A stretch of 64,000 nt of DNA. Source: Terriglobales bacterium. Its GTDB lineage: Bacteria > Acidobacteriota > Terriglobia > Terriglobales > Acidobacteriaceae. How positions within the stretch are numbered: position 1 is the stretch's first letter; each line of letters opens with the position of its first letter. Positions 5,269 through 64,000 of this stretch are shown one piece after another. Below the pieces are notes generated by a model. That model saw nothing but the letters and a program-made list of their open reading frames with translations, was not told where the DNA came from and searched no databases. The stretch lies in contig DATHMF010000030.1 in assembly GCA_035487355.1 (NCBI GenBank), forward strand, positions 1 through 64,000, in the 5' to 3' direction. The position numbers and the translations under genes are program-made.

Positions 5269-6513
5269 ATGACCACCGATTTGCTCGAGCAGGCATACAG
5301 TTCGTTGAAGCATAACCGCCGGCGTTCGGCGCTGACCATGCTGGGCATGGCGTGGGGCATTGCTACCGTGGTGCTGCTGCTCTCCTATGGCGCGGGCTTC
5401 GAGCGTGCCATCATGTATTTCTTCTCCAGCTTCGGCTCCAACATGATCGGCGTTTTTCCCGGACGAACCTCGCTCCAGGCTGGTGGAACCAAAGCCGGAG
5501 CGCAGATCCGTTTCAAGATGGAAGACGTGGATGCTCTCACCGCCGAGGTTCCTCTCATCAAACGCATCTCGCCTTTTGTGGACATAAACAACGCCACGGC
5601 GCAATATGACACGCGCAGCGCCATCATCTCCACCAGTGGCGTCTATCCCAGCTATCAGGACATCCGCAATATGACCGTCTCTGAGGGCAGGCTGCTCAAC
5701 GAACAGGATGAACAACAGCATTCGCTCTCTGCCGTCATGGGTTCGGAGCTGAAAGACAAGCTGTTTTCCGGCAAGCCGGCCATTGGGGAAAGCGTGCGCG
5801 TGAATGGCCTCTCCTTTCAAATCGTCGGTGTCTTGCAGCGCAAGGTCACCGACGGCGATGATAACGACAATAACCGCGTCTTTATCCCTTTCAGCACGAT
5901 GGGCCAGATCAAAGACACGCAATACGTGAACGGAATCTTCATGGAATACGAGGGCCCCAACAACGAGAAGGTGGAAAACGCGGTCCGTCAGAGCATGGCG
6001 GCCCACCATAACTTTGATGCTAAGGACAAGCGCGCCATCTTCGTCTGGAACCTCATGCAAGACGTCCAGGAGTTCCGCATCGTGACCACCGGCATCAAGA
6101 TCCTGCTGGCCTTTATCGGCACGCTCACCCTGGGCATCGGCGGCATTGGTCTGATGAACATCATGCTGGTCTCGGTCACGCAGCGCACGCGCGAGATAGG
6201 CGTCGAAAAAGCGCTGGGTGCGCGCAAACGCCACATCCTCTTTCAATTCCTGGCGGAAGCCATGGCCATCACCGCCGCAGGAGGCATTGCCGGCGTGATT
6301 CTGGCCTACATTGTTTCCTGGTGTGTCGGGTCGCTGACTCTGTTTGGCGCTTTCGTGAAAGATGCCGGTGAAGGGGACATCCATTTAAAAATTGATCCCT
6401 CAATCCTGCTGACGGCCACATTGATTCTGGCCTTCGTGGGATTGGTGAGCGGCATGCTCCCCGCCATCAAAGCGGCGCGCATGGATCCTATTGAGGCTTT
6501 ACGCTACGAGTAG
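5269..6513 (+). CDS. MacB/FtsX-like ABC permease, type B (copy 1)
   Basis: The protein has 414 residues with the same architecture as its neighbour: an N-terminal helix (SALTMLGMAWGIATVVLLL), a periplasmic domain, and a C-terminal FtsX core with GIGLMNIMLVSVTQRTREIG and the ending IKAARMDPIEALRYE. It is much closer to the gene at 8068 than to the type A genes. The A and B types alternate, which suggests that A and B assemble as a heterodimer. No ATPase gene is linked; the closest one, at 25.6 kb, belongs to a separate macA/macB operon. Confidence 0.88.
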   Translation: MTTDLLEQAYSSLKHNRRRSALTMLGMAWGIATVVLLLSYGAGFERAIMYFFSSFGSNMIGVFPGRTSLQAGGTKAGAQIRFKMEDVDALTAEVPLIKRISPFVDINNATAQYDTRSAIISTSGVYPSYQDIRNMTVSEGRLLNEQDEQQHSLSAVMGSELKDKLFSGKPAIGESVRVNGLSFQIVGVLQRKVTDGDDNDNNRVFIPFSTMGQIKDTQYVNGIFMEYEGPNNEKVENAVRQSMAAHHNFDAKDKRAIFVWNLMQDVQEFRIVTTGIKILLAFIGTLTLGIGGIGLMNIMLVSVTQRTREIGVEKALGARKRHILFQFLAEAMAITAAGGIAGVILAYIVSWCVGSLTLFGAFVKDAGEGDIHLKIDPSILLTATLILAFVGLVSGMLPAIKAARMDPIEALRYE

Positions 6514-6525
6514 AGTAAAGGCTTA

Positions 6526-6664
6526 CCGCGGATTACACGGATTTGCGCGGATTTCAAAACTTCATTGTTAGAGCACGTCTACACGTCTAATAGAATGACG
6601 CTTAGGGATGAGCATCAGGTAGTCTTTGTAAGACTGAGGACTGAGGACTAACGACTGAGGACTG
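6526..6664. repeat. CGCGGAT-type repeat and 7-nt GACTGAG repeat
   Basis: From 6526 to 6555 a CGCGGAT/CACGGAT core repeats at 10-base spacing. From 6631 to 6664 the units GACTGAG, GACTGAG, GACTAAC, GACTGAG run up to eight bases before the next start codon. No separate promoter is obvious between the two permease genes. Confidence 0.65.
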
Positions 6665-6671
6665 CTGTTTC

Positions 6672-7919
6672 ATGCAGATGCTGCTCGACATCTTTCTGCA
6701 GACGATGCGCACACTTTGGGCGCATAAGCTGCGCTCGTTCCTGACCATGTTCGGTATTGCCTGGGGAGTGGGATCACTTCTGCTGCTGGTGGGCGTGGGC
6801 GAGGGCTTCCGCTCCGGCCAGCAGAAAAACCTGGCGACCGTCGGCCAGGACATCATCTTCGTTTGGTCCGGCCGCATTCCCGCCGTATCCGGACAGCATC
6901 AGGGCATGCGTCCTTACTTTCTTACTTACAAAGACTACCTCGATGTCAAGAATGAAGCGCAACTGGTGCGCTACGTTGTTCCTATCATCAACCGGGGCGA
7001 CCTGCGGGCGATAAGCGATTTTGCCAGCTCCAGCGGGGCGGTGAGCGGCAGCCTTCCCGATTTCAGCAACATTCGTTTCACCCCGATGGGCGAGGGCCGC
7101 TGGTTGAATGACGACGATGTAGCCGAGCACCGCGCTGTCTGTGTGCTCGGGTTTCAGATGATGCGCAACCTCTTTCCCGGAAGGCCGGCTATCGGCAGCA
7201 CCATTCTGCTGAACGGAATCCGCTTTGAAGTGATCGGAGTGCTTTCCAACATCGGACGGCAAGAGAACAACCAGAACAACATGCGCGTCTATATTCCCTT
7301 CAGCACCATGCGAATGTACTTTCCCATGAAGAGCGAGCAGACGCCTGACGATATTTCGGCGCTCAACTTTCGTCCGGTCAGCCGCGAGCAGCATGCCGCG
7401 GCCATCGAAGAGGTGCACAGGATCATCGGCCGCAACCACGGCTTTGATTATCACAACAAAGATGCGTTCGAAGGCTGGGACACCATACAGAGCGAAGAGC
7501 AGGTCGGCAAGATCTTTACCGCCATGGACGTGTTCCTGGGCGGCGTCGGCATGGTCACGCTCATGCTGGGCGCCATTGGCATCATCAACATCATGCTGGT
7601 CTCGGTGACCGAACGGACGCATGAAATCGGTCTCAGGAAGGCGCTGGGCGCGACCAATCGCAATATCATGTCGCAGTTTTTCCTCGAAGGCGCATTTCTT
7701 ACCACACTCAGTGGAGGCATGGGGATCGGGGCCGCGGCTGCTCTGATGGCGGGGCTGGGAATGTTTGAGCCTCCTAACGGCTTTGATCCGCCACACCTGG
7801 TGCCCATGTCGGCGGCGCTGGCGGTGATTTCGCTTTCTGCTGCGGGGATCGTGGCGGGGTTGTATCCTGCGCGCAAAGCCGCGCTGCTTACTCCGGTGGA
7901 GGCGTTGAGAAGGGAATAG
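6672..7919 (+). CDS. MacB/FtsX-like ABC permease, type A (copy 2)
   Basis: The protein has 415 residues. It shares long identical stretches with the gene at 3689, for example LWAHKLRSFLTMFGIAWGVG and FLGGVGMVTL, and ends LYPARKAALLTPVEALRRE. It has one N-terminal and three C-terminal helices around a periplasmic domain. The start ATG at 6672 lies right behind a 7-nt repeat tract and lacks a good ribosome-binding site. It is the first gene of the second A-B pair and probably arose from tandem duplication of the whole pair. The transported substrate cannot be told from sequence. Confidence 0.88.
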   Translation: MQMLLDIFLQTMRTLWAHKLRSFLTMFGIAWGVGSLLLLVGVGEGFRSGQQKNLATVGQDIIFVWSGRIPAVSGQHQGMRPYFLTYKDYLDVKNEAQLVRYVVPIINRGDLRAISDFASSSGAVSGSLPDFSNIRFTPMGEGRWLNDDDVAEHRAVCVLGFQMMRNLFPGRPAIGSTILLNGIRFEVIGVLSNIGRQENNQNNMRVYIPFSTMRMYFPMKSEQTPDDISALNFRPVSREQHAAAIEEVHRIIGRNHGFDYHNKDAFEGWDTIQSEEQVGKIFTAMDVFLGGVGMVTLMLGAIGIINIMLVSVTERTHEIGLRKALGATNRNIMSQFFLEGAFLTTLSGGMGIGAAAALMAGLGMFEPPNGFDPPHLVPMSAALAVISLSAAGIVAGLYPARKAALLTPVEALRRE

Positions 7920-8060
7920 GAAGTATGAAGTACGAAGGAAGAAGGATGAAGCTAAATTCTTATCGCGAGGGAAGGTAAGAGCTAAGAGCCAAAAGCTAAG
8001 AGCCACAAGCTAAGAGCTATCAAGAACCAAACACAGCTAGAAGCTAGCAGCTAGGAGCCG
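7919..8060. repeat. 7-nt repeat tracts in permease spacer
   Basis: Units GAAGTAT, GAAGTAC, GAAGGAA, GAAGGAT occupy 7919-7952. AAAGCTA, AGAGCCA and AGCTAGA, AGCTAGC, AGCTAGG units occupy 7976-8060. The second part resembles the spacer at 5131-5265 in order and wording, including the shared phrase CCAAACACAGCTAGAAGCTA. Confidence 0.65.
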
Positions 8061-8067
8061 CCTTTAG

Positions 8068-9309
8068 ATGGTCCACGATCTTCTCGGGCAAGCCTATTCC
8101 GCCATGCGTTACAATCGCCGGCGCACCGCGCTCACCATGCTGGGCATGGCCTGGGGCATCGCGACCGTGGTCTTGCTGCTGGCTTATGGCGCCGGATTCG
8201 GGCGCGCTATCCACAACATATTTTCTAATTTTGGTTTGCAGATGATGGGCATCTGGCCGGGGCGCACTTCTCTGCAGGCGGGTGGCGCCAAGGCCGGCAC
8301 GGCAATACGCTTCACTCTGGATGACGTGCAGCACATTCAGGACCTGGTGCCGCTGGTGCGCCATATCAGCCCGGAGGGTTGGATGCAAACCGACGTCGAG
8401 CGTGACAATCGCTCCTTCCAACTCCCCGCCAATGGCTTGACCCCAGACATACAGTACATCCGCGCAATTCAAGTGGAAAGTGGACGGTTTTACGGTCCCG
8501 AGGACGAAATGCAGCACGCCCGCGTGGCCGTGCTGAGCTCCGATGCAAAAACCAAGCTGTTTTCAGGCGAGTTCGCGGTAGGTGAAAACATTCGCATACA
8601 CGGCATCACCTTTCAGGTCATCGGCGTGCTTGCAGCGCACATGCAGGAAGGGGACGACAATATCAACGACATAATCTACATTCCCTTCAACACTATGAGT
8701 GACCTGAAAGACATGCACTACCTCGATGGCATATGGATCGGCTACGAAGGCACCGAATACGAGAAGATTGAAGGCAATATCCGCAGCGTGCTGGCCAGTT
8801 ATCACAACTTCAATCCCAAGGACCCGCGGGCGGTCTTTGTCTGGAACACCATGAAGTCGGTCAACAACTGGCAGATCATCACTGTGGCGCTCGAGGTCTT
8901 TCTGGCCTTTATCGGCACGCTGACGCTGGGCATCGGCGGCATCGGGCTCATGAATATCATGCTGGTCTCGGTGACTCAGCGCACGCGCGAGATCGGCGTG
9001 GAAAAAGCCCTGGGGGCGCGCCGGCGCGATATCCTGTTTCAGTTTCTGGCGGAGGCGCTGGCCATCACCATTGTCGGCGGGCTGCTGGGCATCATCGTGG
9101 CCTACACCATTTCTTTTGCTGTAGGGGCAATTCCTTTGTACAGCGTGATTGCCAAGAATGCCGAGGCGGCGGATATCCACCTGGTCATCTCGCCGGTCAA
9201 TCTGCTGGTTTCAACCTTTATTCTGATGCTCGTGGGGATTGTGAGCGGCATGCTGCCGGCCATCAAAGCGGCGCGTATGGATCCCATTGAGGCATTGCGC
9301 TATGAGTAA
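8068..9309 (+). CDS. MacB/FtsX-like ABC permease, type B (copy 2)
   Basis: The protein has 413 residues and is a close paralogue of the gene at 5269: it shares TALTMLGMAWGIATVVLLL-like and AFIGTLTLGIGGIGLMNIM segments and the same IKAARMDPIEALRYE end. The FtsX core helices and one N-terminal helix are present. It closes the A1-B1-A2-B2 array. Families of this type normally need a LolD/MacB-type ATPase, which must be supplied from elsewhere in the genome. Confidence 0.88.
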   Translation: MVHDLLGQAYSAMRYNRRRTALTMLGMAWGIATVVLLLAYGAGFGRAIHNIFSNFGLQMMGIWPGRTSLQAGGAKAGTAIRFTLDDVQHIQDLVPLVRHISPEGWMQTDVERDNRSFQLPANGLTPDIQYIRAIQVESGRFYGPEDEMQHARVAVLSSDAKTKLFSGEFAVGENIRIHGITFQVIGVLAAHMQEGDDNINDIIYIPFNTMSDLKDMHYLDGIWIGYEGTEYEKIEGNIRSVLASYHNFNPKDPRAVFVWNTMKSVNNWQIITVALEVFLAFIGTLTLGIGGIGLMNIMLVSVTQRTREIGVEKALGARRRDILFQFLAEALAITIVGGLLGIIVAYTISFAVGAIPLYSVIAKNAEAADIHLVISPVNLLVSTFILMLVGIVSGMLPAIKAARMDPIEALRYE

Positions 9310-9384
9310 AGAAAAAGCTAACCACAAAGGACACTAAGGTATTCACGAAGGACACGAAGGTAAATAGGGGGCACTGCTACAGAT

Positions 9385-9409
9385 AAAAAAGGGCGCACTT
9401 GGCGCCCTT
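9385..9409 (-). terminator. Rho-independent terminator of the aldolase gene
   Basis: AAGGGCGC (9389-9396) pairs with GCGCCCTT (9402-9409) around a 5-base loop. Read on the minus strand, the stem is followed by a run of T residues. It sits 26 bases after the aldolase stop codon. Confidence 0.85.
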
Positions 9410-9434
9410 CTTAATTCCGACCTGAGAACTGTAT

Positions 9435-10448
9435 TTACGCTCCAACTAACTCGGCTTCTGAGCGTACGCCATACATCTCGTACCACGGGGTTGCGGCCTT
9501 CAGGCGCTCGTTAACATTTTGAATATTCTTTACGCCCTCTGTGTTCATCCAATCTTCAAAGGCCTTGCGCCCTTGCTTGGCGTAAACCGGGATGCCATCT
9601 TTCCAGGTGGCGCGTCCGCACAGTACTCCGGCGAACTTCACGCCCGACTCGGCTACCAACTCCAAAGACTCGGTGAACTCGGCGTTGCTGACGCCGGCAG
9701 AGAGATAAATGAAGGGCTTGTTGGTGGCCTCGGCCGTGCGGCGGAAAAGATCCTTGGCCTCCTGCTTGGTGTAAGCTTTCTGGCCGCCGAAGGCCTTGGT
9801 GCCTTCGACAAACTTCATGTTGACGGGGATTTCGACCTTCAGCACGTCTACCCCATATCTGTCTTTGGTGAACTCGGCCATGCTTTTGGTCACGATCTCC
9901 GGCTTTTTCTTGGCATATTCCAGGCCTTTTTCATCCACGCCTTCTTCGTATCCCACCAGTTCGAGGAAGTATGGAATGTCGTTGGCGCGGCACTCGTCGC
10001 CAATGCGCTCCGCCCAGGCGTGTTTAACGTTGTTGATCTTGTCGCCATCGGTGGGAGTGTAGTAAAGCAGGATCTTGACGGCATCGGCGCCGGCTTCTTT
10101 CAGCCGCTTAGCCGACCAGTCGCCCAGTAAATCGGGCAAACGGCCGGGCTCGGTCTTGTCGTAGCCTGTCTTTTCATAGGCGAGCAGCAGGCCGGAGTTC
10201 TTGTTGCGGGCCTTGGCAGCCGGCAGCCCCCACTCGGGATCCAGTAAGATGGCGCTGGCATACTGCGTGAGCACCTGGCTCACGACAATCTTGAATTCTT
10301 CCATGTTGGCATCGGTAATCTCCCCGCCCTTTTCCTTGGCCAGGGACTTCTGCAGTGAGCCGCGCTGGTCCATGGCGGCGGCGGCGATGACGCCGCGCTT
10401 ATCGGCGAGATTCTTTAATCCGGCGAGTTTCCCCGGGGTGAGCTTCAT
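9435..10448 (-). CDS. lacD: Tagatose 1,6-bisphosphate aldolase family protein (LacD-like)
   Basis: The protein has 337 residues and is a class I (Schiff-base) aldolase of the LacD/DUF2090-related family. Visible signatures are AAAMDQRGSL near the N-terminus, the lysine-bearing strand GADAVKILLYYTPTD and the sugar-phosphate segment PFIYLSAGVSN. Such enzymes split tagatose 1,6-bisphosphate, and often related ketose bisphosphates, into dihydroxyacetone phosphate and glyceraldehyde 3-phosphate. AGGAGG precedes the ATG, and a strong terminator follows the stop, so it forms its own unit. No lac or tagatose genes are adjacent, so a general glycolytic or gluconeogenic role is possible. Confidence 0.88.
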   Translation of the reverse strand: MKLTPGKLAGLKNLADKRGVIAAAAMDQRGSLQKSLAKEKGGEITDANMEEFKIVVSQVLTQYASAILLDPEWGLPAAKARNKNSGLLLAYEKTGYDKTEPGRLPDLLGDWSAKRLKEAGADAVKILLYYTPTDGDKINNVKHAWAERIGDECRANDIPYFLELVGYEEGVDEKGLEYAKKKPEIVTKSMAEFTKDRYGVDVLKVEIPVNMKFVEGTKAFGGQKAYTKQEAKDLFRRTAEATNKPFIYLSAGVSNAEFTESLELVAESGVKFAGVLCGRATWKDGIPVYAKQGRKAFEDWMNTEGVKNIQNVNERLKAATPWYEMYGVRSEAELVGA

Positions 10449-10592
10449 GACATCCTCCTGTATGTGACAACAAAAAGAATAACTAATTAAAAGAGTAATT
10501 GTAACGCACGCGCACCGGTTCCCGTGCGACCGTCGTCACCAGGCCGTATTCTTAATTTCGGTTTGACAAATTTCGCGCTCCAGCCGAGAGCC

Positions 10593-11096
10593 TTACTTCT
10601 GCGGCGGAGCGGGCGGCTTCCAGGTATTCAGGAATTGGATGATGTCTTCTTCCGACATGCCCCGGGCGCTTTCAAATTCTGCGGTTGCATCAAGCACCTT
10701 ACCTTCCGGCGTCAGGACGGCCAAAGATGGAATGCCTTTTTCCAGGTCAACGTGGTATTTCTTCACCAGATCCAGGTTCTTGTCGAAGCGGCCAACATCC
10801 ACGTGTACCACCTTGAAGTTGGCGTTCAACAGCGGCTCTACCCGCGGCTGATGAAAACCGTAGTCGAGCGCGTAGCAGTCTCCACACCAACTGGCGCCAA
10901 AGACAAGGATCACGCGCTTATGTTCTTTGCCCGCTTCACTCATGGTGTGCGCAATTTCCTGCTGCGCATCGGCGTCTGAGCGGTACAGATTGGGGTCAGG
11001 TCGAAAAGGTATCTTGAGAGGCGTGTTTGCTGTCTGTGCCTGGCAGAAGGTTGCAAGCAGGATCAGCGGAAGAAATAGAGACTTGCGCATTCGCAT
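10593..11096 (-). CDS. Secreted thioredoxin-fold protein
   Basis: The protein has 167 residues. A signal peptide (LFLPLILLATFCQA) is followed by a thioredoxin domain with the redox motif WCGDC (Cys71 and Cys74) and the cis-proline region GIPSLAVLTPEG. It resembles periplasmic thioredoxin-like reductases; CGDC differs from the usual CGPC. The protein probably acts on disulphides in the periplasm. It is a single gene between the aldolase and a plus-strand membrane gene, with no obvious partner. Confidence 0.85.
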   Translation of the reverse strand: MRMRKSLFLPLILLATFCQAQTANTPLKIPFRPDPNLYRSDADAQQEIAHTMSEAGKEHKRVILVFGASWCGDCYALDYGFHQPRVEPLLNANFKVVHVDVGRFDKNLDLVKKYHVDLEKGIPSLAVLTPEGKVLDATAEFESARGMSEEDIIQFLNTWKPPAPPQK

Positions 11097-57503: not shown

Positions 57504-58016
57504 CTAGTTGGTAAATGGGCGTTGGAAGCTGGCATCAATGCCGGTGACGACGACTTTTCCGTTTTCCCGGCCGATGGTGGCTCTTTCGTAATCCTGCATA
57601 GTTCCCGTAGATCCGTAGTCTCCCTCGGCAGCCAGATACGTAGTTACGGTCTGGATGGCAGTATAGGTAATCACGGCGGAGTTTCCGTCAGGCGCAATGG
57701 TGATATGGAGGTTGGTGCGCTGAATTTTGTTCTCGCGCAGCCTGGGGAAGACGCGCTTAAGATTTGTCCGATAGTGCTCACGGTTCATGGAAACCATCTG
57801 TAGCCCGGTGGAGCTGTCCATAACCACTTTGAGCAAGGCATCTTTGCCGATGTTTTCGCAGACCGCGTCTGGATCTTTGCTATGTTGGGCCTTGCTGTCA
57901 CTTTCCAAGAGATTGAGGACATCTTGCTTGGTGATAGCTTGTGCCACGGCGTGCGTGGCCGCGAGCACAGAGGCAACCATGAGAACAAATGCGCAGACAA
58001 GCTTTCGGGTGTACAT
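57504..58016 (-). CDS. Small secreted protein, possibly NTF2-like
   Basis: The product has 170 residues from MYTRKLVC, with a signal peptide (CAFVLMVASVLAATHAVAQ). The mature part (residues 27-170) has helices then long beta strands (NLHITIAPDGNSAVITYTAIQTV), a pattern seen in NTF2/SnoaL-like folds, but no motif is decisive. It starts 72 bases after the E2-like gene and is the last gene of the ubiquitin-like operon if cotranscribed; its link to the pathway is unproven. Confidence 0.6.
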   Translation of the reverse strand: MYTRKLVCAFVLMVASVLAATHAVAQAITKQDVLNLLESDSKAQHSKDPDAVCENIGKDALLKVVMDSSTGLQMVSMNREHYRTNLKRVFPRLRENKIQRTNLHITIAPDGNSAVITYTAIQTVTTYLAAEGDYGSTGTMQDYERATIGRENGKVVVTGIDASFQRPFTN

Positions 58017-58088
58017 ATTATTTCTTTTCAAGATCAGCCGTACATAACAGAAGCACTCAGCAGTCAGACGCCGCAAAGACGGCTTATG

Positions 58089-58691
58089 TTAACTGATTAC
58101 AATCTTTTCCGACCAAGGATCTTCCGTCCCTTGTTCCGGGGCTCCTCGCTCTGGCGTCTCCTGTTCTGGAACTGTTGGAGCCTGCGGAGCCGCCGAGCCG
58201 GCAACATCCGATTCCTGAATGTCACCAAGGGAGGGGGCAATACTCCGGCTATCCACGGGCAACAGGTGCGGGTTTTGGGCGGCCCACTTTGCGGCCAACC
58301 CATTCAAGGGACTTTTGGTGTTGTATTCCTGATAGGCAATCATTCGTCCGATACGAATGATGAGATCATCGAGTCCCTCGGATGCGGCCCAGAAGTCGCC
58401 GATACAAACAGTGGCGTCATCGAAGTTAGGATGAAAGACCGGCGTCAACATCCTGCATTGAGGCGCGCGCCTGGGATAGCCAAGAGAAAGATTCACTTCC
58501 AGCACGTGAGTATCGCGCTCCAGGATATCTCCGGTCGGCGAGACGTACAGACCGCGTATCTTGTAGGTGAAACGATACACTTCCGGAGGAAGCCCGGCCG
58601 TGCCGGTGATCTGGATCAGCGGCCAGCCCTTCAACATCCGCTGCAGTAACTGGTAGTCCTGCGCGAGGCGACGGATACGAGGAGCGGTCAT
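58089..58691 (-). CDS. E2 (ubiquitin-conjugating)-like protein
   Basis: The product has 200 residues. The core matches the UBC fold: a YP..AP strand (GYPRRAPQCRMLTPVFHPNF), the HPN motif (87-89) that stabilises the oxyanion, and a cysteine seven residues on (Cys96, TVCIG) where E2 enzymes carry the ubiquitin thioester. A downstream helix follows (GLDDLIIRIGRMIAYQ). The C-terminal 50 residues are Pro/Glu/Ser-rich and probably disordered. It lies in one operon with Ubl, E1, JAMM and RING-type genes, so a conjugating role is strongly suggested. Confidence 0.88.
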   Translation of the reverse strand: MTAPRIRRLAQDYQLLQRMLKGWPLIQITGTAGLPPEVYRFTYKIRGLYVSPTGDILERDTHVLEVNLSLGYPRRAPQCRMLTPVFHPNFDDATVCIGDFWAASEGLDDLIIRIGRMIAYQEYNTKSPLNGLAAKWAAQNPHLLPVDSRSIAPSLGDIQESDVAGSAAPQAPTVPEQETPERGAPEQGTEDPWSEKIVIS

Positions 58692-58727
58692 AGAGCAATA
58701 GTCATCCCAAGAAGCCGTGGCGAAAAT

Positions 58728-59387
58728 TTATGGCACACCTGTTTTCTTCCATTTTGCGATGGAATTGACATGGTATTGCAAATAGACCGTGCTGAAGAAA
58801 AAGGTCATGACACCGCTCAAATGCAAGCCCATATTTTCTGTGGAGGTGTAATACTCCTCCATGGCGGCCTTGATCTTGAAGATGCCGATAAGATAAGCAA
58901 TCGCTCCGCCGATAATGAGTATGCCGCCAATCAACGGTCCGGAGTCGGAGTGCGCATTCAGTACCATGGCGAATACTCCAGCAATAAATCCTGCAGGATA
59001 CATGGCCACGAGTATCAGGATGTTATTGTCGCCGCTGAGCTTGCGCGCCCAGTTCGCCAGTATAAATGTCCAAGCCATGTTGAAGAGGATGAAGGGAGAA
59101 AAGAGGCGCGACAGAATGCCCATTAGCAAGACAACACCCCAATGGAGATTCGGGGGTAGCTCGACTGTCGCGACCGGTGCGAAAGCCGGCGCGGCGGCAG
59201 CGCCGGACGCGGCCGACACGGGGACTGCGATATTACCCACGACTTGAGAAACCAATCCCCAATCACTCATGCCTTCGCTTTTTGCCAGGTCGCCTGGCGA
59301 GATCTTTCCCGATTGCACCTGCTGCTGTAAATCCGCAAGCGAGAAGGGACCCAGTTGTTCGGTACCACGTTTCACAAAATAGTCCAT
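58728..59387 (-). CDS. GYF_2-domain membrane protein
   Basis: The product has 219 residues. The N-terminal 50 residues (DYFVKRGTEQLGPFSLADL ... SWDW-like position GMSDWGLV) match the GYF_2/DUF4339 domain, which binds proline-rich peptides in the cytoplasm. Five or so hydrophobic segments follow. The GYF_2 domain could recruit partners such as the Pro-rich E2 tail or the RING protein. It starts 14 bases after the RING-TM2 gene and ends 36 bases before the E2 gene. Confidence 0.78.
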   Translation of the reverse strand: MDYFVKRGTEQLGPFSLADLQQQVQSGKISPGDLAKSEGMSDWGLVSQVVGNIAVPVSAASGAAAAPAFAPVATVELPPNLHWGVVLLMGILSRLFSPFILFNMAWTFILANWARKLSGDNNILILVAMYPAGFIAGVFAMVLNAHSDSGPLIGGILIIGGAIAYLIGIFKIKAAMEEYYTSTENMGLHLSGVMTFFFSTVYLQYHVNSIAKWKKTGVP

Positions 59388-59401
59388 AGAAAAACGCGCT
59401 C

Positions 59402-59953
59402 CTACGATTGGAATTGAACTCCCTTGCTGTCATGATTGACAATACAGATTTCAATGACCGCCCACAGCCAGGCCATTGGACTACCATAGCCAAGAGTTAC
59501 AACGGAAAGGCACAACTGTCCAATGGCCTTGCCGTAGTATCCGGCATAAAAATTGTGTCCGCCCAACGCCCCCAGAAAAACCCCCAGCAGAATGAACGTC
59601 ATCTTGTTCTTGGCAACGGGTGGCGAAGTGGGGAAGATAGCAGTGCCCACAACGGGAGCGCCATTCGCATTGCTCGACTGGGGCTGGGTCGCAGCCGCGG
59701 GCGCATACCCGGCAAAGGTGGGCACAGAGCCTGACCGAATAGTTCCGGCGACCGGAACAGACACTAATTCCGGGGCAGACACCGCAACCTTGGGCTCTTC
59801 TGCCGGTGCGCAGCGGCAACCGAAGAGCGTGCAGCCGCCATTTTCTGCATAGCAGTCTTTATGGTGCGGTGTTCCACACCCCTCGCAGAACAGGTCCTCT
59901 CCAGAGGCGGAATCAACAGATGTGCGGCAATAAGGACACACAGCACCAGTCAT
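59402..59953 (-). CDS. Prokaryotic RING-type zinc-finger protein with TM2 domain
   Basis: The product has 183 residues. The N-terminal 48 residues contain an ordered Cys/His array: Cys6, Cys9, Cys23, Cys26, His30/His31, Cys34, Cys41, Cys46, Cys48 (CPYC, CEGCGTPHHKDC), the pattern of the prokaryotic RING finger family. An Ala/Pro-rich linker then leads to a TM2 domain (LGVFLGALGGHNFYAGYYGK) with two helices, anchoring the RING in the membrane. RING fingers of E3 ligases bind E2; this is the best E3 candidate of the operon. It overlaps the FHA gene by four bases. Confidence 0.85.
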   Translation of the reverse strand: MTGAVCPYCRTSVDSASGEDLFCEGCGTPHHKDCYAENGGCTLFGCRCAPAEEPKVAVSAPELVSVPVAGTIRSGSVPTFAGYAPAAATQPQSSNANGAPVVGTAIFPTSPPVAKNKMTFILLGVFLGALGGHNFYAGYYGKAIGQLCLSVVTLGYGSPMAWLWAVIEICIVNHDSKGVQFQS

Positions 59954-61017
59954 GAGCGCTGTTTCTCCTTGTAACGGAAGGAATATCGGCCAATCTGCAC
60001 CAGGTCTCCATCCTGCAGAACGCGTGAGGCTATAGGTTGTCCTGCGACATAAACATTTCCCAGGGCCCGCATTTGTACACGGGCCCCAGTAATTTCAACA
60101 ACCGCGTGCTGGGGAAGAATGGTTTGGTCTTTGAACAAGTAGACATCAGATTGCTGCTGGCTGCCGATAACGGTAGAAGACTTGTACAAAATGAATTGCT
60201 TTCCTGCCAGCGGACCGGCGGTTACATAAAGCCAACGGTCCTTGAGGGCGCTCTCAACCATGCCCATCGCGATACCGGTCGTCATGCCAAAAAGGGCAAA
60301 ACCAACTACTCTGCTGGCAGCTCCGCCGCCAGTCACAAACGAGATTGGATCGAAGATGATGCCGCCCAGTCCCGCACCGATGATTCCACCGAGTATTCCG
60401 AACTTGGCCTTCTTTGGCGATTGGCCGACAATGCCATAAATGATTCCACCCGCCACGCCGAATATCATCCAGGCGATGCCACGGGAAATCCACCACGCTG
60501 GATTGCGAGGGGATTGAATGCCGGCCGCGAAGCTCATTTGAAGGGCGATGTTGTAGATAATGTTGGCTATGAAACTGAAAATGAAGCCAAGCATCACACC
60601 CAGTGGTAACGCCAAGGCGCCGCGAAACAACGCCTTGCGCAGCGACCGTTCTACAATGCTTTCGGCGATGGCGAACCCTAAACACATGAAGGTCAGCATC
60701 AAGGGCACCATCCACAGATTACCCCAGCGGCGCCCTTCGCCGCCGTCTATGAAGAACGGCTCACAAATCCCCCAACCGACAATCGCGCCAAGAAGACCGG
60801 CCACACCAAGATAGAACCAACCTTGCAGCAGGATGGAGCCACGTGTTTCTGACGCGGTAGCAGGGTCATCAACTGCAGCACTGATGCTGCCGTAGGTCTT
60901 TCCTCCCACATCGGCTGGTTTGGACGGCGCAACCGGAGCAGCAGTTTCCGGCAGGGTGACAGCCGCAAGGTCCTCGAAGGTAATCTTGATGCCTTCTTTA
61001 TTGTCTTTGCTGGCCAT
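59950..61017 (-). CDS. Multi-span membrane protein with C-terminal FHA-like domain
   Basis: The product has 355 residues. After a polar N-terminus (1-60) come about six or seven hydrophobic helices (63-255), then an FHA-like domain (about 265-350). The FHA fold shows as LYKSSTVIGSQQQSDVYLF and LPQHAVVEITG, but residues used for phosphothreonine binding, the GR and SxxH motifs, are replaced by GS and LPQH, so phosphopeptide binding is doubtful. It overlaps the JAMM gene by 20 bases and the RING gene by 4. Confidence 0.82.
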   Translation of the reverse strand: MASKDNKEGIKITFEDLAAVTLPETAAPVAPSKPADVGGKTYGSISAAVDDPATASETRGSILLQGWFYLGVAGLLGAIVGWGICEPFFIDGGEGRRWGNLWMVPLMLTFMCLGFAIAESIVERSLRKALFRGALALPLGVMLGFIFSFIANIIYNIALQMSFAAGIQSPRNPAWWISRGIAWMIFGVAGGIIYGIVGQSPKKAKFGILGGIIGAGLGGIIFDPISFVTGGGAASRVVGFALFGMTTGIAMGMVESALKDRWLYVTAGPLAGKQFILYKSSTVIGSQQQSDVYLFKDQTILPQHAVVEITGARVQMRALGNVYVAGQPIASRVLQDGDLVQIGRYSFRYKEKQRS

Positions 61018-61864
61018 CTTTCTCCTTCTTCTCCTTGCCGGCGGAATCTGTGGAAGTCTTGCCGGCGGGTTGAGCAGTATCGTGCGTCAAATTCTGACCA
61101 TTCTGGTCACTTGTCTTTTCCTGGCCTTCGGGTATGGCCTGAATGATACGCCCAGTCTGAGGATCAACCGGCACCGGCATTACCACGACACGTGGGAAGA
61201 CCACCCAGGCCACAACCAGACCGCAAGCAAAGATCACCAAGTACCAAAGAATCGCAGTAGTCCAGCGCAACCAGGCAGGCTCTGGATTGGATTCGGGCCG
61301 GGGTGAGTCATCGCGTCCCACCACGTGATCATCACCCAGATCAAAGCCCATCGGTTCAGGTTTGCCGGTTTCCCCTGCGCATTCCCCGCCCTTTGAGTCG
61401 GCGACAGCCAGTTGCGATAGCCGCTCAAGCGAACCACCGACCCAGCCGAAGCAGCCTTCCTCATCACTCTGGGGGTCATACACCCAGGCCACCTGTTGCG
61501 GTGACGAGAAGAAATTCTTATGGATAAAAGTATCGTGATCGGAGAGAAAAACGCCGAATCCAGGATGCGAGTGATACCACCCAAGGATTCGTTCGTCAGG
61601 ATATTCTTTGTCCTTAACGTTGTAAATGTGCTCCCATGTATCCTGGGTAAAAGTAACGTGCGTGCCCCCTTGCGCCGCATTCACGCCGGGGATGGAGGCT
61701 TCGACCTTCAGTTTGCCTTCGTGCTCACGCCCGATCAGGACTCCGCACACTTCGCTTTTGCTCTGCGAGCGTGCGTGCTGGCGTATGCGACGCAGAACCT
61801 CGCTATTGATAATAAGCGCCGGGCCTTCCCCCTTCATTTTCGACTTACGCGTCACGTTTTCCAC
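60998..61864 (-). CDS. JAMM/MPN (Mov34) metalloprotease with membrane anchor
   Basis: The product has 288 residues. The JAMM zinc site is complete: Glu38 (SEVCGVLIG), His98 and His100 (YHSHPGFG), Ser108 and Asp111 (LSDHD). Such enzymes release ubiquitin-like proteins from conjugates or trim their C-termini. A single transmembrane helix lies at about 201-223 (WTTAILWYLVIFACGLVVAW), with a Lys/Gln/Glu-rich tail after it. The start is GTG 61864, 13 bases inside the E1 gene; ATG 61837 is an alternative. It overlaps the next gene by 20 bases. Confidence 0.9.
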   Translation of the reverse strand: MENVTRKSKMKGEGPALIINSEVLRRIRQHARSQSKSEVCGVLIGREHEGKLKVEASIPGVNAAQGGTHVTFTQDTWEHIYNVKDKEYPDERILGWYHSHPGFGVFLSDHDTFIHKNFFSSPQQVAWVYDPQSDEEGCFGWVGGSLERLSQLAVADSKGGECAGETGKPEPMGFDLGDDHVVGRDDSPRPESNPEPAWLRWTTAILWYLVIFACGLVVAWVVFPRVVVMPVPVDPQTGRIIQAIPEGQEKTSDQNGQNLTHDTAQPAGKTSTDSAGKEKKEKDGQQRQ

Positions 61865-63060
61865 CTTTGCGCGGCTGTCGAAGCAAACACATCCGGTTCG
61901 TCGCCTGAGATAAAGTACGCGATTTCCTGGTCCTCGGCCCGGGCAATGAATGCATCAAACAGAGGCAATCCCAAAGCATTGAGCTTGCGCTGGGCGAGTT
62001 CGGGTTCGCCGCCATAGTTGTGCATCGTGGTTACGACCCGCATGTGACCGTCACGCGGGCAGAGACCCTGCTCATAGCGGACGCTTCCTACCGGGGCAAA
62101 TAACTCCTGCTCCTGGTGGCAGCTTGGGCACGATAGCCTGTGGACAACGTCACGGCTGAACTCCAGAACCACTTCATCCCGGCCAAGGTCATGCCGCGCG
62201 CGCTCCAGCAGTTGAAGCAAGGTCATCTCTCCTGAACGTTGCGGCAGCCGCACTATGTTCTCGAATGTGTCGTGGCTCATGCAATCAGGGTTCTCGGTGT
62301 ATTCGACGACGTAGGAGGTATGATTCAAACCCTCAAAAATGTATCCCCGGCCCGCCAGGGTGGGAAGTCCGTGAATGAGTTTCACCGCCTCTTGTACCTG
62401 AACCGCCGCAATAATTGAAGAAATGGTCGGAGTGGTTGGCACCTTTCCCGCGGTCTCTTCCTCGCGGGCCAGCAGATTACAGGACATACGGCGCTCCAGC
62501 TGTGCCCAATCCGTCTCGCCCAGCGTGCATTCATAGCAGGGCGGAGAGCCCGGAACAAATACCCGCGCAACTCCATTAATTCCCTCGATGGCGCCATCCA
62601 CCCAGGGGCGTTTCATTTTCCAGGCGGCGCGATTGATCCAGAGCCGCGCTTCACGATTGTCGAGGCCGGCGATGATCAGGTCGCTCCAATGAAATAGTCC
62701 CAAACCGCAGTCATACAAAATATTTGCAACCAGGGGCTGCACCATGGCTTCAGGAGACAATGCCTTAACTGCTTCCGCTGCGACTTCCGCTTTGAACTGG
62801 CCGACGTCTTCGGTGCGGTAAAGCACTGCACGTGAAAGGTTCGACTCCTCTATGCGATCAAGATCTACGACCACGATCTGCTTGAACCCCAACAACGCCA
62901 GGTTCTTAAGTACCTCGTTGCCCAAAGCGCCGGCGCCAACTACCAGGACACGCGTTTCCCGTATCTTCTCTTCGTTCCACCACGGAATGAGCCGCAACCG
63001 GCTGAAGCGGTCTTCCCGCATGTCCGATGGCGCTACCGTAATCTGTGGAGGAACGCTCAT
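61852..63060 (-). CDS. E1/ThiF-family ubiquitin-like activating enzyme
   Basis: The product has 402 residues. It has the Rossmann nucleotide loop VVGAGALGNEV (41-50), the acidic residues of VVDLDRIEESNLSR and a K in GQFK, all used in adenylating a Ubl C-terminus. CYEC (175-178) and CPSC (311-314) look like the usual two-part zinc site. Cys194 (RRMSCNLL) is a candidate thioester cysteine. The C-terminal 90 residues are not recognised. It overlaps the Ubl gene by 4 bases and the JAMM gene by 13, so it is tightly coupled. Confidence 0.9.
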   Translation of the reverse strand: MSVPPQITVAPSDMREDRFSRLRLIPWWNEEKIRETRVLVVGAGALGNEVLKNLALLGFKQIVVVDLDRIEESNLSRAVLYRTEDVGQFKAEVAAEAVKALSPEAMVQPLVANILYDCGLGLFHWSDLIIAGLDNREARLWINRAAWKMKRPWVDGAIEGINGVARVFVPGSPPCYECTLGETDWAQLERRMSCNLLAREEETAGKVPTTPTISSIIAAVQVQEAVKLIHGLPTLAGRGYIFEGLNHTSYVVEYTENPDCMSHDTFENIVRLPQRSGEMTLLQLLERARHDLGRDEVVLEFSRDVVHRLSCPSCHQEQELFAPVGSVRYEQGLCPRDGHMRVVTTMHNYGGEPELAQRKLNALGLPLFDAFIARAEDQEIAYFISGDEPDVFASTAAQRWKT

Positions 63061-63332
63061 TGACCACCTGCAGTGATCTCCGGCTGAAGGCGAAGAATAT
63101 CACCATCGGCAACTGCGGCCTCGGCAAGGGTTTGGGTATCCTGAATCTGGCGTCCTGAGTTCTTGTGGTGGAACTTGTAGCTCAGGGGAGCACCATCCGG
63201 GCCATTACTGGGAAGGCGGAGCTTCTGCACCAGCACGGCAATGATCTTGTTGCATGGAGCGTCGTCGGGAAGCTCAACCGGAACACGTTTGTTCTCAGTC
63301 GAGTCATAGACGGTGACGTTTATGGTGGGCAT
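63057..63332 (-). CDS. Ubiquitin-like beta-grasp protein ending in GGQ
   Basis: The product has 91 residues. The pattern is a small beta-grasp fold of the YukD/EsaB-like type: an opening beta hairpin (INVTVYDSTENKRVPVELP), a helix (NKIIAVLVQKLRL), and strands with YKFHHKNSGRQI and LRLQPE. The last three residues are Gly89, Gly90 and Gln91. A Gly-Gly with one extra residue would suit conjugation after removal of Gln by the JAMM enzyme next door. It overlaps the E1 gene by four bases. Confidence 0.85.
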   Translation of the reverse strand: MPTINVTVYDSTENKRVPVELPDDAPCNKIIAVLVQKLRLPSNGPDGAPLSYKFHHKNSGRQIQDTQTLAEAAVADGDILRLQPEITAGGQ

Positions 63333-63355
63333 CTTTAGATTTATCCTGCTCTCTC

Positions 63356-64000
63356 TTATCGAGCTGTAGGTTGAGATTTCCCGCCCGAAATGTTACCTCG
63401 GGAATTGATGCTTGCAAATTCCGCAAGCCGTTGACGCCCGTTGCCCGTGAACTCCCAATCAGAGTCACTCAGCAAAGTGTCAGCACGCACGGCAAAGTTC
63501 AGATTTTCTGCATTGGGATCAACATTCCGGTCCATCTTGAACACCACGATCCCGAGCAGGTTCCCCTTATTGTCAAAAACTGGCCCGCCGCTATTGCCTG
63601 GACTGATGGGCGCCGAAATCTGGAACAGAGAACCCTGGTCCACGCGGGAAACCATTCCATTGCTGATGGTGAACTTAAGTCCCTCAGGATGGCCAATTAC
63701 AAAGACATCTTCACCGTCAGTCGCTGAGGCAATGGGTTGGACGAAATCGGAGTGTCCTGACTCACGCGGCACCCACAACAGGGCCAGGTCTAAATGCTTG
63801 TGGTGCGCTACCACATCGGCTCCCGCCCACGCGCCTGAGGCCATGGCCACCAGTGCGCGGGAATTGGCTCGGCCGCTCCAATTGAGGCCATCAACAACAT
63901 GACGGGCCGTGGCAAATAAATATCCCTCGGAGTTTGCGCGCAGAAGGATGCCTGCGCCCAGTTCTCCCGACATTGTCTCCTGATGGCTGAACCACAGCCG
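63356..64000 (-). CDS. Trypsin-like serine protease, 5' part beyond the window
   Basis: The visible part is open from the window edge (64000); an in-frame ATG lies at 63973. Numbered from that ATG, the catalytic triad is His25 (ATARHVVDG), Asp62 (LDLALLWVP) and Ser128 (PGNSGGPVF), a chymotrypsin/HtrA-like domain. No PDZ domain follows. It ends 23 bases upstream of the Ubl gene and is the first visible gene of the operon; the reading frame extends past the edge, so an N-terminal anchor or signal may be missing here. Confidence 0.85.
   Translation of the reverse strand, partial: RLWFSHQETMSGELGAGILLRANSEGYLFATARHVVDGLNWSGRANSRALVAMASGAWAGADVVAHHKHLDLALLWVPRESGHSDFVQPIASATDGEDVFVIGHPEGLKFTISNGMVSRVDQGSLFQISAPISPGNSGGPVFDNKGNLLGIVVFKMDRNVDPNAENLNFAVRADTLLSDSDWEFTGNGRQRLAEFASINSRGNISGGKSQPTAR

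Follow-up and report, generated by a model that had tools for sequence, protein, structure and literature searches.

A predicted ubiquitin-like conjugation operon in a Terriglobales genome

We analysed a stretch of 64,000 nucleotides from a Terriglobales bacterium (GenBank assembly GCA_035487355.1, contig DATHMF010000030.1, positions 1 to 64,000), hereafter called the window, and found a compact, membrane-anchored operon of eight genes on its minus strand which, as judged from sequence, covers all steps of a ubiquitin-like tagging pathway and includes a candidate ligase of the RING type. In order, the genes encode a trypsin-like protease (TRY), a ubiquitin-like protein (Ubl; UBL), an activating enzyme (E1), a JAMM isopeptidase, an FHA protein, a RING/TM2 protein, a GYF_2 membrane protein (GYF) and a conjugating enzyme (E2). 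It is likely that these proteins form a self-contained, reversible Ubl conjugation pathway at the cytoplasmic membrane, with a JAMM-matured Ubl and the RING protein as ubiquitin ligase (E3). This reading builds on the gene set, its order, the intact catalytic and zinc residues, the glycine end shared by the Ubls and the fusions of the RING domain to other proteins of the operon.

A preliminary description of the window had proposed a nine-gene minus-strand operon of overlapping or closely spaced genes, with a complete Ubl-E1-E2-JAMM-RING set and FHA, GYF_2 and trypsin partners. All nine open reading frames are present, and the tight spacing was confirmed: UBL/E1 and FHA/RING overlap by 4 bases each, E1/JAMM by 13 and JAMM/FHA by 20, while non-overlapping neighbours within the operon are 14 to 36 bases apart. 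Pfam matches back the proposed identities of all eight proteins named above (Table 1), and the completeness of the set is borne out by the domains, catalytic residues, gene order, RING fusions and shared Ubl C-terminus described below. The ninth gene did not hold up as a member. It encodes a small, possibly secreted protein and starts after a gap of 72 bases. Because no relative of it occurs at the 97 related loci, the nine-gene operon was rejected. Scanning the junction between E2 and this gene for consensus promoters and terminators gave no informative site. The description had also counted four proteins with membrane segments; we find five membrane-bound proteins among the conserved ones, TRY, JAMM, FHA and GYF by hydropathy and RING by its TM2 match.

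Conservation of the operon

To collect related loci, an E2 alignment was searched against 84,980 species of bacteria and archaea, and the best 80 of the 354 E2 relatives obtained were taken as loci. Because the loci were picked by E2 similarity, the conservation of the E2 pattern residues is partly by construction, and the neighbouring genes provide the independent evidence. The eight genes are found in identical order in the window and in three more genomes of the same family, which together represent four genera (L022-L024). Among these loci and those already collected, UBL, E1, JAMM, FHA, RING and E2 lie together on one strand in 48, which represent about ten bacterial phyla, and in 44 of the 48 the order is UBL-E1-JAMM-FHA-RING-E2; the trypsin is present in 33 of the 48 and the GYF protein in 24. 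The arrangement is not due to chance, as genera other than that of the window share the order of all eight genes, and other phyla that of the core. By record name the loci belong to Acidobacteriota, Verrucomicrobiota, Planctomycetota, Kiritimatiellota, Lentisphaerota, Armatimonadota (Zipacnadia), Sumerlaeota, Rifleibacteriota, a proteobacterial bin and others. Most carriers are metagenome bins, and the type strain Edaphobacter aggregans DSM 19364 and the complete chromosomes of Acidobacteriaceae bacterium ZG23-2 and Planctomycetes bacterium syqfu are also among them.

The Ubl is the least changed component, with a mean pairwise identity of 68%, followed by E1 and E2 (53% each), GYF (44%), FHA (39%), JAMM and trypsin (37% each) and RING (31%). 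The pairwise distances of the components are correlated (rho 0.65-0.84), as expected if they have travelled together; shared ancestry alone would give the same result.

E1, E2 and JAMM

The E1 consists of a single adenylation module in which Ser193-Cys194 is invariant among 37 E1s. Its structural model has a pLDDT of 90, and the loop 194-206, with Cys194 at its edge, is disordered. When the model was compared to known structures, Foldseek returned UBA3 first and VIA-align returned MoeB/ThiF first for the adenylation domain. With SAE2, UBA3, UBA1, UBA6 and UBA7, among which are the E1s of SUMO, NEDD8 and ubiquitin, the VIA-align alignments extend to model residues 384-387 and to where those chains end at the C-terminus. 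This whole-model alignment is consistent with the C-terminal region of the E1 being an E2-binding, UFD-like domain.

The E2 profile matches the structures of UBE2B, UBE2A and RAD6 (best E=2e-16) and 269 distinct PDB sequences in all. The HPN motif and Cys96 are present in 49 of 49 relatives, a count that for HPN is partly by construction as this motif belonged to one search pattern, and the Ser-Pro following Cys96 is conserved. In the window E2 the HPN motif is directly present. Both Cys96 and Cys194 of the E1, which are predicted to be catalytic, had been singled out in the preliminary description and are conserved in relatives. The Prok-E2_B family was rejected as the family of this E2, because no match to it was found in the genome of the window.

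In the JAMM protein, E38, H98, H100, S108 and D111 are found in all 49 relatives, and hydropathy places a membrane segment at about residues 199-234. It is the predicted deconjugase and probably the Ubl-maturing enzyme.

The Ubl and its C-terminal end

All 32 aligned Ubls match the YukD family and 14 of them the ubiquitin family, and the Ubl profile matches ubiquitin structures. The motif PEI(T/I)AG is present in each of the 54 Ubls that were located; the gene stops right after it in 28 cases, and 1-19 unconserved residues follow in the other 26. Because the motif is universal and is followed by either a stop or an unconserved tail, Gly89 is predicted to be the mature end of the window Ubl. 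By analogy, the pattern is that of ubiquitin-type precursors, for which the CsUb precursor with its C-terminal extension serves as a comparison (PMC6043591, PMC5654768). The window Ubl would have to lose Gly-Gln to mature.

Two loci showed unusual Ubls. At L101:5102-5707 there are two adjoining Ubl copies, the first of which lacks the PEIxAG tail. The acidobacterial locus L027 (genome G219, 5617-10885) encodes a Ubl of 236 amino acids, apparently with two Ubl domains and ending in SGGRP, which adjoins a long E1, an E2 with zinc ribbons and a JAMM protein.

The RING protein

The eight C4HC3 ligands of the zinc domain are invariant in 37 relatives, all of which match Prok-RING_1. A review names it as the prokaryotic RING layout (PMC11354881). 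A hydrophobic residue between the first two ligands, which is the usual E2-contact position, is found in 36 of the 37. The RING also co-occurs with E2: among 396 acidobacterial genomes, six of the seven with a strong RING match contain an E2 (p=4e-8). Nine other genomes have 14 RING matches, each of which belongs to the operon or, in the case of a planctomycete chromosome (G396), is located some 4 kb away from a second Ubl gene.

A different situation was encountered in one genome of the same phylum (G026, family f23, a 6.8-Mb bin), where the C4HC3 zinc domain has 18 matches, about 16 of them intact, on many contigs (L039, L061-L068 and L153-L174, with L026 and L151). They are fused to ankyrin repeats or TPR and, as judged by eye, also to a GntR-type helix-turn-helix or a DCC-like domain. 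This genome also encodes a Ubl-E2-JAMM trio, which is dispersed, and an E1 that matches it. The set looks like an E3-style expansion served by one E2; the other genomes searched hold one to three zinc domains.

Accessory proteins and RING fusions

The predicted catalytic triad of TRY (H188, D225 and S291) is present in 32-33 of 34 relatives. TRY has two hydrophobic segments, both in the part outside the window, which are followed by the protease domain. In eight loci, mainly of Planctomycetota and Riflebacteria, the zinc domain is fused N-terminally to a trypsin-like protease and precedes the membrane segments (Table 1). Hydropathy gives two or three segments before or around the protease in these fusions, and once also one inside the protease region. 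Eight planctomycete-type loci encode an FHA-RING fusion, and two Spartobacteria loci one of the RING with a GYF-type membrane protein. Pfam confirmed two RING-trypsin fusions and one FHA protein; the other fusions were assigned by motif and operon profiles. The fusions are a firmer link between the RING and the accessory proteins than their being neighbours.

In the FHA domain, the position of the canonical phosphothreonine-binding Arg is occupied by Ser in 43 of 49 proteins. A role of the FHA protein as a classical phosphothreonine reader is doubtful for this reason.

Relation to known systems

Burroughs, Iyer and Aravind reportedly predicted bacterial operons of RING, E1, E2, JAB and YukD-type Ubl genes in 2011, including examples from Acidobacteria, Planctomycetes and Actinobacteria. 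The window operon shares with them a YukD-type Ubl, E1, E2 and JAMM that are encoded together, a C4HC3 zinc domain of the Prok-RING_1 family and an E2 with catalytic Cys and HPN, and it fits among these operons. Such uncharacterised operons are mentioned for Actinobacteria, Planctomycetes and Acidobacteria in a 2014 review (PMC4197634), and complete bacterial operons in PMC5654768. No report of an experimental test of a bacterial RING/YukD Ubl operon was found in the literature consulted, nor, the 2011 paper aside, a description of the fixed trypsin/FHA/GYF set, of the RING-trypsin and FHA-RING fusions or of the PEITAG maturation site.

The preliminary description had cited Bil and CBASS as precedents. 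This is correct with respect to the Ubl/E1/E2/JAMM-type chemistry, but the closest precedents are the 2011 RING/YukD operons and the operon of Caldiarchaeum subterraneum, and a RING partner in bacteria is therefore not new in itself. The Caldiarchaeum operon likewise combines a ubiquitin precursor, whose C-terminal extension is cut by JAMM, with E1, E2 and a small RING, and was reconstituted in vitro (PMC5654768, PMC6043591). However, it is archaeal, has a RING-H2 (C3H2C3) and a di-glycine end and has no FHA, GYF or trypsin partners described, whereas the window operon has C4HC3 and a single Gly. Bil (BilABCD) also encodes Ubl, E1, E2 and JAMM in one bacterial operon, and its JAMM exposes a C-terminal glycine. 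It differs in that BilA has two Ubl domains compared to one 91-amino-acid domain in the window Ubl, BilD has an inactive and an active adenylation domain compared to one ThiF domain in the 402-amino-acid window E1, the Bil E2 has a CEHH motif (PMC11354881), and Bil is antiviral and works without RING.

CBASS type II (Cap2/Cap3) uses E1/E2/JAMM-type chemistry in bacteria, but Cap2 fuses E1 and E2 and modifies the CD-NTase, whereas E1 and E2 are separate in the window and no cyclase is found in the cassette. The same type of chemistry is described for Bub operons (PMC13373217). YukD/EsaB of WXG100 (ESX) secretion belongs to the same Pfam family as the Ubl, but is not conjugated and occurs without E1/E2 (PMC1779556); no FtsK-type ATPase or WXG100 protein is encoded among the genes of the window cassette. 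Thus Bil, CBASS type II, the Caldiarchaeum operon and ESX YukD each have a tested defining feature that the window operon lacks.

Weighing the alternatives

Several observations weigh against a RING-dependent conjugation pathway. The zinc-ligand spacing is PHD-like, and in fold searches with the zinc domain PHD fingers came first in Foldseek and RINGs first in VIA-align (Z about 4), both of them weak matches. Following the last cysteine, a basic linchpin residue (R or K) occurs in 6 of 37 relatives; the window protein has Arg there. Such a linchpin is not universal among RING E3s, and its loss is not decisive. In the E2, the residue hand-aligned with Phe62 of UBE2D is Arg or Lys. Because the linchpin is not conserved and a basic residue occupies the Phe62 position, a standard RING-E2 contact is not supported. 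To our knowledge there is no known adduct, substrate or phenotype. Hydropathy does not fix the membrane side of the protease domain, and the shared end of the Ubls has one conserved glycine (ITAG) and no di-glycine. Finally, Bacillus YukD itself is not conjugated (PMC1779556).

The observations on the zinc domain, together with a PHD Pfam match in 12 of the 37 relatives, would suit a reading in which conjugation by E1, E2 and JAMM is real and the zinc protein is a PHD/C1-like membrane adaptor instead of an E3. The E2 would then attach the Ubl directly to partners, for example to membrane proteins encoded in the operon. Bil is said to conjugate without a RING. For CBASS this is documented (PMC10097602). 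However, the Prok-RING_1 match in every relative, the RINGs returned first by VIA-align, the hydrophobic residue typical of E2-binding RINGs, the strong co-occurrence with E2 and the placement in the operon speak for a RING, and we consider the adaptor reading rather unlikely.

It is improbable that the operon serves in anti-phage defence, as Bil and CBASS type II do. Characterised bacterial Ubl operons are mostly defence systems, the E1 and JAMM proteins weakly match the E1-E2, BilD and JAB models of PADLOC, and the distribution is patchy, with strong Ubl matches in 3 of 297 acidobacterial, about 10 of 294 planctomycete and 4 of 241 verrucomicrobial genomes. However, the cassette holds no cyclase and no recognised killing effector, it includes four or five membrane proteins, and the E1 tree tracks phylum (9 label changes compared to a minimum of 8, with the window among Acidobacteriota), unlike what is seen for freely moving defence genes. 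At the sensitivity used, phages, plasmids and viral contigs yielded no Ubl, and phages yielded no E2. The flanks of about 30 loci contained isolated defence genes only, an observation without a base rate for comparison. Since the E1 tree tracks phylum, the searched mobile elements are without these genes and no killing effector was recognised, we favour stress response or quality control over defence.

It is very improbable that the Ubl is an unconjugated carrier or assembly factor like ThiS/MoaD or YukD in a sulfur-carrier or type VII secretion-like accessory system, as its YukD family and the resemblance of the E1 to ThiF/MoeB might suggest, because the E2 (UBC fold) and JAMM look active, the C-terminal tails are of the precursor type, the E1 match runs into the C-terminal part of eukaryotic E1s, and the cassette is free of FtsK/WXG100 and sulfur genes.

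Proposed pathway

For the favoured RING-dependent pathway we infer the biochemical steps, the E3 role and the biological purpose as follows. JAMM, or possibly the trypsin-like protease, would trim the Ubl to ...PEITAG. The E1 would adenylate Gly89 and then carry the Ubl as a thioester on Cys194, from where its UFD-like C-terminal region would pass it on to the E2, at Cys96. Acting as E3, the RING protein with its C4HC3 domain, bound to the membrane, would steer the Ubl to membrane-proximal proteins, and JAMM would take it off again. The FHA, GYF_2 and trypsin-like proteins may form a membrane complex that recruits, senses or cuts targets. Possible tasks of the trypsin are processing of the Ubl, degradation of tagged proteins and sensing of the envelope. 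The purpose is plausibly envelope stress or membrane-protein quality control. In the homologous archaeal operon, ubiquitylation depends on E1, E2 and RING, and Rpn11 matures the precursor (PMC5654768, PMC6043591).

A more far-reaching possibility, which we put forward tentatively and do not favour, is a widespread bacterial membrane-anchored RING ligase-protease system, in which the RING E3 attaches the Ubl, itself much better conserved across phyla than its enzymes, at the membrane. The trypsin-like protease linked to the RING, and in some phyla fused to it, would cut or sense what has been tagged, and no proteasome would be involved.

If the proposed pathway is correct, bacteria would own a full E1-E2-RING-JAMM cascade with substrate-directing parts, unlike a mobile antiviral system. 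The operon would be a bacterial counterpart of the Caldiarchaeum operon and would bear on RING-dependent Ubl ligation outside archaea and eukaryotes, and the RING-trypsin fusion would suggest that proteolysis can be linked to a Ubl where there is no proteasome. The named carriers E. aggregans DSM 19364, ZG23-2 and syqfu make it testable now.

Gene layout and additional observations

The contig is 129,956 bases long and belongs to a genome of 5.4 Mb that is 96.6% complete. The full TRY gene reaches contig base 64462, beyond the window edge (L001:1357-2463), and encodes 368 amino acids. The true start of JAMM possibly lies a few codons 3' of the annotated start.

Table 1. Genes and predicted features of the operon in the window, with the loci of the RING-trypsin fusions
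Feature	Position	Strand	Basis
TRY, trypsin-like protease, C-terminal part in window	63356..64000	-	Trypsin_2 E=3e-24 (Pfam); full open reading frame; hydropathy
UBL, YukD-type ubiquitin-like protein, 91 amino acids, end PEITAG-GQ	63057..63332	-	YukD E=9e-15 (Pfam)
Ubl Gly89 codon, predicted mature C-terminal glycine; trailing GQ predicted propeptide	63066..63068	-	conserved PEI(T/I)AG end
E1, ThiF-type adenylating enzyme, 402 amino acids	61852..63060	-	ThiF E=1e-53 (Pfam), one ThiF domain
E1 Cys194 codon, predicted catalytic cysteine	62479..62481	-	invariant in 37 E1s
JAMM, predicted isopeptidase, C-terminal membrane segment	60998..61864	-	JAB E=1e-14 (Pfam)
FHA, polytopic membrane protein, FHA domain C-terminal	59950..61017	-	FHA E=2.5e-6 (Pfam), hydropathy
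RING, N-terminal C4HC3 Prok-RING_1 and C-terminal TM2, candidate E3	59402..59953	-	Prok-RING_1 E=1.3e-7, TM2 E=2e-10 (Pfam)
Zinc domain of RING protein, predicted binuclear, C6-x2-C9...C23-x2-C26-x4-H31-x2-C34-x6-C41-x4-C46	59816..59938	-	ligand pattern
GYF, N-terminal GYF_2 and about three membrane segments	58728..59387	-	GYF_2 E=5e-12 (Pfam), hydropathy
E2, UBC-fold conjugating enzyme, HPN motif, Cys96	58089..58691	-	UQ_con E=1.6e-8 (Pfam)
E2 Cys96 codon, predicted catalytic cysteine	58404..58406	-	49/49 relatives
Small protein, signal-peptide-like start, directly downstream of E2	57504-58016	-	no Pfam match
RING-trypsin fusion loci: L113, L129, L137, L138, L139, L143, L144, L145			

A DUF2752 membrane protein is encoded at L145:10789-11376 and at 13 further loci; its gene often lies between those for GYF and E2 or directly behind E2. 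It recurs in operons of Acidobacteriota and Planctomycetota and is not present in the window. The planctomycete chromosome G396 (the genome of L148) carries two separate Ubl loci, at C1:6180203 and C1:6779231, each with its own RING. In the Zipacnadia loci L110 and L141, several JAMM-like proteins are encoded per operon and the gene order differs.

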